Assembly: GCA_017629415.1 (NCBI GenBank)
Contig: JAGBXG010000108.1
Location: 1 to 7,182 of the forward strand
Reading direction: 5' to 3'
DNA from: Pseudomonadota bacterium
GTDB taxonomy: Bacteria > Myxococcota > Bradymonadia > UBA4248
DNA length: 7,182 nucleotides
In this document: piece after piece, positions 354-7,182 of the stretch
How the letters are laid out: every line of letters starts with the position of its first letter
How positions within the stretch are numbered: position 1 is the first letter of the stretch
Made by a program: the position numbers and the translations under genes
The notes under the pieces: generated by a model
Database searches by the model: none
What the model was told of the DNA's origin: nothing
The model's input: only the letters and a program-made list of their open reading frames with translations

Positions 354-503
354 AGGGGGCAAAGCCCCCTGCGGCGCTTTTTGCGCAGCGTATGCCGCTT
401 GCGGCATAGCTCGCAATTGCAAGGCGTATGGAGCCCGTCAGGGCGACATAGCCGAGCGCAAATACGCGCCTACCCCCCATGCGGGGACACCCCGCAACAC
501 CCC
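354..503 (+). repeat. GC-rich multi-hairpin intergenic repeat, copy 1
   Basis: This is a block of nested inverted repeats, matched over about 150 bp by the inverted copy at 5981-6134. Visible stems are AGGGGGC/GCCCCCT (354-360/364-370); an outer stem pairing GGCGCTTTTTGCGC (373-386) with GCGCAAATACGCGCC (456-470), with one bulge and one mismatch; TATGCCGC/GCGGCATA (391-398/401-408); a compound stem with GGC/GCC (423-425/451-453), TATG/CATA (427-430/447-450) and GCCC/GGGC (433-436/441-444); and GCGGGG/CCCCGC (481-486/490-495). Its GC content is far above its flanks. The same-strand neighbours are the cinA-type gene upstream and the rplU promoter downstream. The type of element is unknown: a REP/BIME-like repeat, a non-autonomous mobile element or an RNA structure would all fit. 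Confidence 0.85.
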
Positions 504-504
504 G

Positions 505-550
505 CCGGGGCGTTGCCCCGGACCCCACCAAAGGAGCTAAGCCCCTTTGG
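505..550 (+). repeat. Two extra hairpins attached to repeat copy 1
   Basis: CCGGGG (505-510) pairs with CCCCGG (516-521) around the loop CGTTG. CCAAAGG (528-534) pairs with CCTTTGG (544-550), and the stem extends inward by GC/GC (536-537/541-542) past a mismatch. Both directly follow copy 1 and have no counterpart beside copy 2, so they are either an optional module of the element or a remnant of another one. No T tract follows, so a terminator role is unlikely. Confidence 0.6.
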
Positions 551-4807: not shown

Positions 4808-5872
4808 TTATTCTGGGGATTTTACGACAAAGCGCGATGCTTTTTTAATATCTTTGGCGCTTGCATTAGTCACGGCAATACAGCTGTTTTCCAGAATTTT
4901 TTCGACTTTAAATCTTCCGCCTTCGAGGATTTCGCCGTCAATATAGATTTCGCCGACAGCCCCTTCATGGACGCCTTGCGCATGTCCAACGTTTAATTTA
5001 ATTTGCGCGCCTTTTTTCTTGCCGGTAACCGACATGATTTCGGCTTCAATTTTTTTATGTCTGCCTTTGATATCACTGCAGATAGGTTTGATGGCAGCTT
5101 TTTCGTTGGATACAGCTGACGTTTTTGAATTCAGTCTTTTGACTTCTGAGGAGGAATAGCCACCGCCGCTTGAAGTATTGACGACGGTAGGTCCAGCCTG
5201 CCCGCCAGGTGCAGCGATACCGCCGGCCGCTGCCGTAGGCAGCACAGCGCCGCCAGCTGCAGCTGTAGGCAACGCGACACCGCCAGCCGCACCGCCAGGC
5301 AAAGCCGCAGCACCGCCGCCAGCAGCACCGCCGCCAGATGCGCCGCCGCCAGATTTACTGGCTTTAGCATTGGCTGCAGATTCCGATTCAAAATCGAGAT
5401 ACGCTTCAAACGTTGGCGCAGTTGTCGGCGCAACAAAACCGTCATAATTTTCTTCAAATCTGACGTTAATCGAATAAATCGATTGTCCGCTTTCAGCACT
5501 GACTTTGATGAAATGCAAACCAGATTCAGGTGTAAATCCCTTCACTTCCCCCGTGGCACCGCCGGAATCACGTCTTTGCACTTCAATAGGGATGCCAAAT
5601 CTGTCGTAAATCCCGATTTCGACATTAAAAACGGCCATGGGATCATCCCAAAATGTATTGACCGTAATATTTCCGGGCGACGGAACAAAAAGCATTTTCC
5701 AGTCAATTTCATCGCCAGCTGTCGGATAAATTTCATCGTTGGTGACTTCTTCGATGGCGATTTGAATAGCCCCAGAGCGCAGCGCATCTTCGTCAAGTTC
5801 AGTCGTACAACCCGCAGCAAAAGTGGCCGCAGCCAAGATTCCCAGGAAAGCATTTTTTGTGAATTTTTTCAT
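4808..5872 (-). CDS. Predicted PPC-domain lipoprotein with Gly/Ala repeat linker (354 aa)
   Basis: The signal peptide MKKFTKNAFLGILAAATFAAGC predicts lipidation at C22, with Thr at +2. Residues about 40-140 resemble a PPC-type beta domain and align with the 278-aa neighbour: NDEIYPTAGDEIDWKM, VNTFWDDPMAV, IGIYDRFG, HFIKVSAESGQSIYSINVRFE. Residues about 172-240 are a low-complexity Gly/Ala linker, including three 10-residue units (GGVALPTAAA, GGAVLPTAAA, GGIAAPGGQA). The C-terminal domain (about 270-352) has the beta pattern IEAEIMSVTG, the turn VGHAQGVHEGAVGEIYIDG and FKVEKILENSCIAV. It recalls small barrels of the FlgT-C or MreC type, but this is a shape resemblance only. AGGTG (5879-5883) fixes the start. 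The gene has its own strong promoter and terminator. No catalytic motif is visible. Confidence 0.88.
   Translation of the reverse strand: MKKFTKNAFLGILAAATFAAGCTTELDEDALRSGAIQIAIEEVTNDEIYPTAGDEIDWKMLFVPSPGNITVNTFWDDPMAVFNVEIGIYDRFGIPIEVQRRDSGGATGEVKGFTPESGLHFIKVSAESGQSIYSINVRFEENYDGFVAPTTAPTFEAYLDFESESAANAKASKSGGGASGGGAAGGGAAALPGGAAGGVALPTAAAGGAVLPTAAAGGIAAPGGQAGPTVVNTSSGGGYSSSEVKRLNSKTSAVSNEKAAIKPICSDIKGRHKKIEAEIMSVTGKKKGAQIKLNVGHAQGVHEGAVGEIYIDGEILEGGRFKVEKILENSCIAVTNASAKDIKKASRFVVKSPE
5195..5284 (-). repeat. Three 30-bp in-frame repeats in lipoprotein linker
   Basis: Three consecutive 10-codon units encode GGVALPTAAA, GGAVLPTAAA and GGIAAPGGQA, the third diverged. They lie in a larger Gly/Ala-coding stretch of about 5150-5355 that is GC-rich compared with the rest of the gene. 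A repeat of this kind can change length by slippage without breaking the frame. Confidence 0.8.
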
Positions 5873-5878
5873 ATTCGG

Positions 5879-5883
5879 CACCT
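5879..5883 (-). promoter_or_regulatory. Ribosome binding site fixing the 354-aa lipoprotein start
   Basis: AGGTG on the minus strand is 6 bp before the ATG at 5870-5872. It favours this start over the in-frame ATG at 5927-5929, which lies upstream and close to the predicted transcription start. Confidence 0.75.
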
Positions 5884-5913
5884 GATGAGATATGAAATGT
5901 CCAAACTTTGAAA

Positions 5914-5942
5914 TATTTAACAAGAACATGTGACTGTGTCAA
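5914..5942 (-). promoter_or_regulatory. Near-consensus sigma70 promoter of the 354-aa lipoprotein gene
   Basis: On the minus strand a perfect -35 TTGACA (5937-5942) is followed after exactly 17 bp by the -10 TAAATA (5914-5919). Transcription would start near 5907, leaving a short 5' leader of about 35 bases that contains the ribosome binding site. This is the best promoter in the window, so the lipoprotein is probably well and constitutively expressed. Confidence 0.8.
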
Positions 5943-5980
5943 AGATGGTATCGGAGATAGCACCTGAAACGCTGTTTTAC

Positions 5981-6134
5981 GGGGCGTTGCGGGGCTTGCC
6001 CCGCATAGGGGGTAGGCGCGTATTTGCCGCGCGGCTATGTCGGCCATTCCGGCCTCCATACGCCTTGCGTTGCGCGTCTATTTTGCGGTGCAAAATACGC
6101 CGCGCAAATAGCGCCGCAGGGGGCGTTGCCCCCT
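5981..6134 (-). repeat. GC-rich multi-hairpin intergenic repeat, copy 2 (inverted)
   Basis: Read on the minus strand it follows copy 1 block by block: AGGGGGC/GCCCCCT, GCGGCGCT, GCGTAT, GCAAGGCGTATGGAG, CGACATAGCCG, AAATACGCGCCTACCCCC, ATGCGGGG, CCCCGCAAC. The variable arms are TATTTTGC/GCAAAATA (6090-6097/6079-6086), where copy 1 has TATGCCGC/GCGGCATA, and GGCC/GGCC (6051-6054/6042-6045), where copy 1 has GCCC/GGGC. Pairing is kept although the bases differ. It begins 55 bp behind the stop of the 221-aa gene and ends 38 bp before the -35 box of the 354-aa lipoprotein gene. Confidence 0.85.
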
Positions 6135-6189: not shown

Positions 6190-6855
6190 TTAATCCTGAT
6201 GCATACCATCATCATTTTCTTCCTTCCTTTGTAAATCCTCTGCATGAAACGATTCACGCAAGGGAAACCGTTTGCCAAGATTGGTCAGCGTCAAAGGCTC
6301 GAATTCGTATGAAAGTCTCGCGTATTTATTACACGGAATCGCATGACAGTAGGCCAGCGCTGCGGCAGCCCTGCGATAACAATGAATATGCTCTTTGGGA
6401 TGAATCAGCTTGTTATTTTCAAACAAAAGCGCGGTTTTGATGCTCAAAGGCTGTTTGTAAAGATGCGCATAATGCAGGATTTCACGCCCCAGCAAATCGA
6501 TGGGAATAATTTGATGACCGCTGAACATCAGATGACGCGTCAATGCAATAAAAATGTTGGCGCTTGAACTGACAAACAACGGATAATTTCCAACATAAAT
6601 AAGGTAAAGACCGGAAGCATATTTGGCTGGCAAAGCAGCGGAAAAGAAAGGCCCAAACCACTTAGCAACCCACTGACGCGGCCCTTGATAAGGGTCATTT
6701 TCAGGCGTTTCTATAGTTTCACTGTTTTCCGTTTCTGCAGAACCCGGCGCTGTAATCACGGGATTTTCAGCCAGCTCGTTCGGCAACCCTTTGTCATCAG
6801 GTCCAACGACAGCAAACTCTAAAACCTGACTGATTCCCACGTCTTTTTTTGCCAT
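6190..6855 (-). CDS. Hypothetical protein with His/Cys-rich centre (221 aa)
   Basis: I do not recognise a family. The start at 6855 (MAKKDVGISQ) has AAGGGG (6861-6866) 5 bp upstream. Residues about 20-58 are acidic and Pro/Glu/Thr-rich and probably disordered. Residues 60-115 are aromatic and hydrophobic (QWVAKWFGPFFSAALPAKYA, then LYLIYVGNYPLFVSS), without a clean membrane span or signal peptide, so the protein is probably cytoplasmic. The centre holds H152, H156, H158, C159, C170, H171 and C175, spaced like a possible metal site. The C-terminus (from about 195) is charged and ends in EENDDGMHQD. It is the only gene between the repeat copy 2 and the terminator at 6989-7014 and seems to be a single-gene unit. 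No clear terminator precedes the repeat. Confidence 0.75.
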   Translation of the reverse strand: MAKKDVGISQVLEFAVVGPDDKGLPNELAENPVITAPGSAETENSETIETPENDPYQGPRQWVAKWFGPFFSAALPAKYASGLYLIYVGNYPLFVSSSANIFIALTRHLMFSGHQIIPIDLLGREILHYAHLYKQPLSIKTALLFENNKLIHPKEHIHCYRRAAAALAYCHAIPCNKYARLSYEFEPLTLTNLGKRFPLRESFHAEDLQRKEENDDGMHQD

Positions 6856-7037: not shown

Positions 7038-7182
7038 TTAAGCTGCCGGAGCTACAGGAGCGGCTGCCGGAGCTACAGGAGCGGCTGCCGGAGCTACAGG
7101 AGCGGCTGCCGGAGCTACAGGAGCGGCTGCAGGAGCTACAGGAGCGGCTGCAGGAGCTACAGGAGCGGCTGCAGGAGCTACA
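7038..7182 (-). CDS. 3' end of a gene with C-terminal AAAPVAP repeats
   Basis: On the minus strand an open frame enters at the right edge and ends at TAA (7038-7040). Its 47 full codons encode only Ala, Pro and Val in a seven-residue period (AAAPVAP), finishing in PAA. The reading frame is supported by the 21-bp period being a multiple of three and by a perfect terminator 23 bp downstream. Ala/Pro/Val tails of this kind occur in surface or periplasm-spanning linkers and in histone-like DNA-binding proteins, among others. Nothing in the visible part decides between these, and the functional part of the protein lies outside the window. Confidence 0.75.
   Translation of the reverse strand, partial: VAPAAAPVAPAAAPVAPAAAPVAPAAAPVAPAAAPVAPAAAPVAPAA
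7045..7182 (-). repeat. 21-bp tandem repeat, six full units and a partial seventh
   Basis: The unit recurs at 7045, 7066, 7087, 7108, 7129, 7150 and 7171, continuing past the window edge. The four units nearest the stop codon have GCCGG (Pro codon CCG on the minus strand), and the three further in have GCAGG (Pro codon CCT). Otherwise the units are identical, which points to recent expansion by slippage or unequal exchange. Confidence 0.95.

Follow-up and report, generated by a model that had tools for sequence, protein, structure and literature searches.

The window, the whole 7,182-nucleotide stretch of DNA that was analysed, contains two composite copies of a repeat family whose unit is a single bulged hairpin, alone or in a same-strand pair, in which nine bases are fixed and one of these is unpaired. 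The family may well be a lineage-specific, intergenic, structure-conserved and REP-like non-autonomous DNA hairpin repeat, which a protein would recognise and of which some sense copies would be terminators. Read from side-by-side comparison of copies, the module is stem-CTAT...ATACG-stem', with the C unpaired, which on the opposite strand reads CGTAT...ATAG and leaves a G unpaired. Some units stand alone, others form direct tandem pairs whose cores are separated by about 14 nt, and others belong to composites such as the 150-nt window copies, in each of which an antisense pair lies within another bulged hairpin of the same kind. A Watson-Crick scan with two mismatches allowed, over 1.76 Mb of seven related genomes (the first 20 kb of contigs C1-C20 or C1-C10), gives 482 units, while each of 12 decoy words yields 2-22. 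The density ranges from 0.15 to 0.34 per kb and, extrapolated to genome sizes, probably corresponds to roughly 400 to 1,450 units per genome in this group of uncultured relatives of the myxobacteria. An earlier scan, which required pairing on both sides of the motif, gives 278 matches against 0-22 for 23 decoys, and 277 for the reverse-complement form, as expected. Alternatives to ATACG are rare against these 278: ATAAG 4, ATATG 8, ATAGG 1 and the bulge-free ATAG 12. Neighbours at most 30 nt apart lie on the same strand in 147 cases, on opposite strands in one, and overlap on opposite strands in one. The spacing of same-strand neighbours has its mode at 14 nt (22 cases at 13 nt, 70 at 14, 19 at 15, 13 at 16, six at 17 and eight at 18). 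Many copies belong to a short form without inner hairpins. Sixteen long forms were gathered for their resemblance to the window copies; two nested units in antisense to H2 are present in 15 of them, and a single nested unit is visible in L078.

Both window copies show the same order of parts: H1 (AGGGGGC..GCCCCCT), H2 with one unpaired C and with the two inner hairpins inside, a C5 stretch, H3 (TGCGGGG..CCCCGCA) and a C-rich tail. The features of the window are listed in the table.

Features of the 7,182-nt window, numbered from its first nucleotide
Feature	Positions	Strand	Basis or context
cinA (C-terminal part), rplU, rpmA, obgE		+	Pfam
Four further genes	after obgE	-	no Pfam match
Composite copy 1, long form	354-504	+	gap between cinA and rplU; R1 84.9 bits, E 1.7e-13
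H1 of copy 1, AGGGGGC-AAA-GCCCCCT	354-370	+	sequence and fold
H2 of copy 1, stem 373-386/456-470 with unpaired C465, two hairpins within	373-470	+	sequence, fold, RNAalifold
Nested bulged hairpin of copy 1; + strand CGTAT...ATAG, unpaired G390	389-409	-	within R2 match 383-457 (-)
Nested bulged hairpin of copy 1; + strand tandem GA/GA, unpaired G426	425-451	-	within R2 match 383-457 (-)
H3 of copy 1, TGCGGGG-ACA-CCCCGCA (480-496), then tail ACACCCCG	480-504	+	sequence, fold
Two extra GC hairpins 3' of copy 1	505-521, 528-550	+	sequence only; outside the element common to the copies
Composite copy 2, long form	5980-6134	-	between genes 4808-5929 and 6190-6855; R1 82.0 bits, E 5.7e-13
H3 hairpin and tail of copy 2	5980-6005	-	sequence, fold
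H2 unit of copy 2 (CTAT...ATACG) around the nested pair	6019-6111	-	
Nested bulged-hairpin pair of copy 2, cores 6035-6062 and 6078-6099	6029-6105	+	R2 match

The two extra hairpins at 505-550 have the form G4-loop-C4, followed by ACCCC or AACCC, and similar G4-loop-C4 hairpins lie 3' of composites in G008 (L148, L151 and L154). At 7042-7182 there is a 21-bp tandem repeat (GCTGCCGGAGCTACAGGAGCG and variants) which runs past the window end and has the appearance of the last part of a - strand gene for an Ala-Pro-rich repeat protein.

The two copies lie where the sequence-only reading had placed them, with ends better set as in the table, and the paired changes that it had described are present: TATGCCGC/GCGGCATA against TATTTTGC/GCAAAATA, where both arms changed and pairing is kept, gives three compensated pairs, and GCCC/GGGC against GGCC/GGCC gives one, four altogether between the copies. 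The outer stem that it had drawn around the two hairpins, 373-386 with 456-470, is found with one unpaired C at 465. The difference CTTTTT against CTATTT in this stem is uncompensated and leaves a U.U mismatch in copy 1. Folded as single-stranded RNA and compared with dinucleotide shuffles, copy 1 shows a z of -4.49 (0 of 200 shuffles as good) and copy 2 a z of -3.43 (1 of 200 as good). The outer stem is absent from the MFE fold of copy 2 alone. RNAalifold applied to 12 long forms does draw the outer stem around both inner hairpins, and both partners have changed in 10 of the 39 pairs of this fold, which also prolongs the outer stem by using some bases of the first hairpin's lower stem.

A DNA pattern taken from the inner hairpin finds four loci in the genome collection; they belong to two Myxococcales assemblies, of which one is UBA4248. 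The window ObgE is 81 and 77% identical to the ObgE of those two genomes, in which blastn gives 50 and 17 matches, 40 candidates being scored per genome. Model R1, built from 13 short forms, matches eight of 57 relatives and eight of 377 genomes sampled from the phylum, which are the same eight, with at least 34-79 matches in each (80 candidates scored per genome); both of these large runs score few candidates per genome under strict filters, so that the true numbers may be higher than the counts given and a weak family elsewhere may have escaped detection. Alignment A6 contains 23 tandem pairs, aligned by sequence only and without the window. In it 89.9% of cells pair, against 30-43% in slid registers, 20 of 28 pairs are changed on both sides, and the covariation score is 0.478 against 0.125 in shuffles. 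Since the A6 sequences come from a scan requiring the exact motif and adjacent pairing, the fixed core and some of the pairing follow from the selection itself, and the fair comparison is with the decoy counts. A4, with 76 composites found by R1 and not by that scan, has 176 cells with changes in both partners where shuffles have 49, in an alignment fitted to R1, and each of the four core pairs is intact in 72-75 of 75. The selection for a fold that had been suggested from compensatory change is supported in the family, where core pairs are kept and arms vary together; neither of the outcomes named against it, no more copies or copies without covariation, occurred.

Model R2, built from A6 and also without the window, finds the nested pairs of the window at 6029-6105 (+; 44.5 bits, E 3.9e-9) and 383-457 (-; 32.2 bits, E 6.4e-6), so that the two inner hairpins of each copy are one antisense pair inside H2. 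In 1.53 Mb it reaches 266 matches at E 0.001, a number in which some places are counted on both strands, and among the 377 phylum genomes it matches the eight that R1 matches. No Rfam family exceeds its gathering cut-off in the window or in 97 kb of five multi-unit loci, the best score below cut-off being 21.6 bits where 52.5 are required, in agreement with the earlier view that no named family fits. As far as Rfam and open-access literature searches go, the family is apparently undescribed. Plasmid records show no match (the whole window in near mode, copy 2 in distant mode), and neither do phage records. In viral contigs the composite pattern is found 0 times and the pair pattern at eight loci, among which the model supports pairs in L184 and, marginally (E 0.071), in L181. 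L184 is a 5.9-kb viral contig with portal (PF06381), minor capsid (PF06152), SLT and DUF2213 genes; it carries two hairpin pairs, on opposite strands, and is possibly a phage of this lineage.

The mismatches within the stems bear on which molecule is selected. Wobble mismatches are balanced (G.T 47, A.C 45), and so neither strand looks selected as RNA. The other mismatches, counted on the CTAT strand, are pyrimidine.pyrimidine in 310 cases against 26 purine.purine, tandem mismatches beside the core are TC/CT (18) or TC/TT (one), and extra one-base bulges in the outer stem, mostly T or C, number 45 on the 3' side of the core against three on the 5' side; these counts are not independent, some of the outer mismatches being the bulges themselves, and base composition, which was not controlled, could account for part of the bias. 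Seen on the CGTAT strand, the same mismatches and bulges become G.A, A.G and G.G pairs and unpaired purines. DNA hairpins tolerate these well, and the strand bias suggests that it is the CGTAT strand that folds. Single-strand DNA folding, in which the CGTAT strand has the lower energy in 296 of 458 cases and the higher in 68, was set aside because the fixed motif contributes a constant share.

Placement was determined with a purpose-made simple gene caller (73-85% coding). Of 200 unit clusters with callable context, 187 are intergenic, with the highest density in convergent gaps (41 in 33 kb) and the lowest in divergent gaps (29 in 53 kb). The R2 matches aligned for this purpose number 184, the best 150 of the 266 in 1.53 Mb and 34 from a window-covering search; 173 are non-overlapping in the sampled contigs, and 159 of these lie outside composites. 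The 159 pairs are distributed as follows: 49 sense and 37 antisense in tandem gaps, 37 in convergent gaps, 16 in divergent gaps, 10 in genes and 10 at edges. This placement agrees in part with RNA-level 3'-end elements, that is, terminators or mRNA-stabilising hairpins whose bulge would be read in RNA by an RNA-binding protein or a ribonuclease, a reading that we hold possible rather than probable. In its favour, in addition to the preference for convergent gaps, sense pairs in tandem gaps lie at a median of 18 nt from the upstream stop codon (antisense pairs at a median of 32 nt from the gene running towards the unit), and a T-run lies within 22 nt behind 57 of the 86 pairs preceded by a sense gene and behind 16 of the other 53 (p 4.9e-5), which suggests that some copies also work at the RNA level. 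But these 16 divide into seven of 37 antisense tandem pairs and nine of 16 divergent ones, and T-runs so common in divergent gaps, without an upstream gene needing them, are a misfit with a pure terminator reading. Orientation in tandem gaps is also nearly free (49 against 37, p 0.24). An A-run, which would be the terminator tail from the other side, is not enriched on the side where a gene runs into the unit (11 of 74 against 10 of 65), and G.T is no commoner than A.C in sense (13 and 16) or antisense contexts (10 and 7). Composites show no T-run behind H2 (0 of 39), and a T-run within 50 nt before H2 in 26 of 39 (710 of 2000 random intergenic places), with every gene orientation. Among the options of the sequence-only reading, the REP-like non-autonomous repeat holds up, and selection at the DNA level fits better than a dedicated RNA, given the nearly free orientation, the balanced wobble and the strand-biased other mismatches. 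No gene family stands out among those flanked by units, and the strand of the units shows no bias with respect to GC skew (73 to 79).

The units can differ between related genomes at the same places. In 36 comparable orthologous gaps, 24 are unit-free, eight show a unit in one genome only and four show it in both, on the same strand. No composite is found at the orthologous site of copy 1 in four relatives, or at that of copy 2 in two relatives, G001 being empty there and G003 having a unit pair followed by T7. Among 28 composites of G003 examined, 20 of which were fetched for high R1 scores, three loci carry an identical 81-nt composite and two share a second version of it. Among the closest matches between pairs, 51 of 60 join pairs of the same genome. 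An insertion of H2 between H1 and H3 of an older element was rejected as a candidate, no empty H1-H3 being present in the sampled 1.76 Mb. Other repeats occur near or within the units. A second palindromic repeat (of GAGACGTGTCACGACACGTCTC type) is found within hairpins of the family and elsewhere (L013, L017 and L019), with a GTAG foot in L013. In 19 of 25 G005 composites examined, another repeat (AATCCAAACAATTCGCCTCAGTTCGC...) lies within 60 nt behind, and this association is seen in L065, L070, L072, L080 and L084 and in the G005 loci L209-L226, several of them near contig ends. An unrelated repeat of about 120-130 nt (...TTCACTGGGCTCTGCGA...) lies inside the H3 loop of a composite in L083 (2571-2652 and downstream), and probably in L005 (1620-1694).

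REPs lie near the 3' ends of genes. In PMC3733652 and PMC8266576, the REP/BIME elements of E. coli and Pseudomonas are described as short extragenic palindromes of high copy number, and the E. coli REP as a stem broken by a bulge. The units likewise are short extragenic palindromes in high copy, but they show no GTAG/CGTC foot tag, they have a variable paired stem outside the fixed bases, their pairs are direct, and their sequence is nearly free beyond the nine bases. At the feet of the 159 pairs (5'/3') GTAG is found 3/0 times, CTAC 1/1, CGTC 4/10 and GACG 5/4, against 21/25, 25/19, 70/70 and 61/69 at 1500 random intergenic places, so that a GTAG/CGTC-tagged REP was rejected, neither tag being enriched. 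REPINs, according to PMC3116915, are doublets with preferred spacing, as is common among the units, but theirs are inverted, with conserved 16-mers, and lie beside RAYT genes, whereas the neighbours here are on the same strand and show no clear RAYT linkage. Genes of PF01797 (Y1_Tnp, RAYT-type) are present in six of the eight genomes, at 14 loci. The 39 kb around them contain six unit clusters against 7.1 expected, and 12 R2 matches at about eight places against 6.9 expected, a slight excess at most; a RAYT linkage is not supported, as unit clusters near Y1 genes are no denser than elsewhere. No enzyme that moves the units was found among the Y1 transposases and integron integrases examined. 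The family is REP-like in working, yet it is no REP by tag, RAYT linkage or doublet geometry.

Three other explanations concern how the hairpins arise or move. Replication template switching could keep the arms of a palindrome complementary and so produce double changes in both arms with no selection on the fold. Such self-correcting palindromes, to which foreign palindromes inside several hairpins would also be congenial, are nevertheless unlikely here, as an unpaired base should vanish under this process and CTAT...ATACG outnumbers the bulge-free form by 278 to 12, other bulged bases being found only four, eight and one times; the near-invariant core pairs of the composites and the strand bias of the mismatches also argue against it. 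That the composites are MITE interiors, mobilised through terminal inverted repeats by a transposase binding these ends and with the hairpins as passengers, is distinctly unlikely, although some composites resemble MITEs in having identical copies and what look like such repeats. In the G003 composite L192, TTAAGGAATGTCTGAACAAT and its inverted counterpart flank the element, with ends TTAAGGAA..GTCTGAA on both sides and TTAA at both ends, a candidate target-site duplication that may instead belong to the repeat itself; the G005 composite L207 has one clear inverted end and one weaker, and in several near-identical G003 copies the flanks agree over about 20 nt per side. However, most composites seen lack such ends, including both window copies (none in the window with up to five substitutions), and 159 of 173 pair matches examined lie outside composites. 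MITE-like stretches with TTAAGGAA..TCTGAA inverted ends are also seen at L127 1824-2000 and L129 10069-10341, one of which adjoins a bulged hairpin. Integron attC sites are folded strands with extrahelical bases and strand asymmetry, and the units share with them unpaired purines on one strand, a variable tip and strand asymmetry. That the units are attC-like recombination sites, used on folded DNA by an integron-like or other tyrosine recombinase, is very unlikely all the same: TIGR02249, the only recombinase family examined, exceeds its cut-off in none of the eight genomes (weaker matches in seven; the genomes may be incomplete), and no cassette-like arrangement stands out, just 18 genes in a set of 1051 proteins having units within 200 nt on both sides.

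Within the preferred reading, that of a REP-like DNA hairpin repeat, the folded hairpin would be recognised by a putative protein, probably on the CGTAT...ATAG strand as single-stranded or extruded DNA, and the units would spread and turn over as non-autonomous elements, much like REPs. Sense copies just after a stop codon, with a T-run behind, may serve as intrinsic terminators. Intrinsic termination does not require a fixed bulged motif; the sense pairs directly after stop codons, with frequent T-runs, resemble such terminators, but many units lie in the wrong orientation for them. A further reading, more speculative and on the doubtful side, is a new kind of folded-DNA recognition, in which a lineage-specific protein would read the nine-base bulged hairpin motif on one strand and would act on direct pairs of such hairpins, about 14 nt apart, either in replicative spread or in a chromosomal role, for example to cut, pair or organise DNA, many copies having been recruited by the host as terminators.

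To our knowledge, it is unusual for bacterial repeats to combine clear selection for a fold with so small a number of fixed letters. Hundreds of natural variants of the bulged hairpin are available within a single genome, so that the bases needed by a recogniser are largely readable from them. The arrangement suggests spreading repeats as a source of gene ends across a whole lineage, and the recogniser, if found, would represent a new transposase system of REP-like type or else a new class of proteins that bind hairpin DNA.
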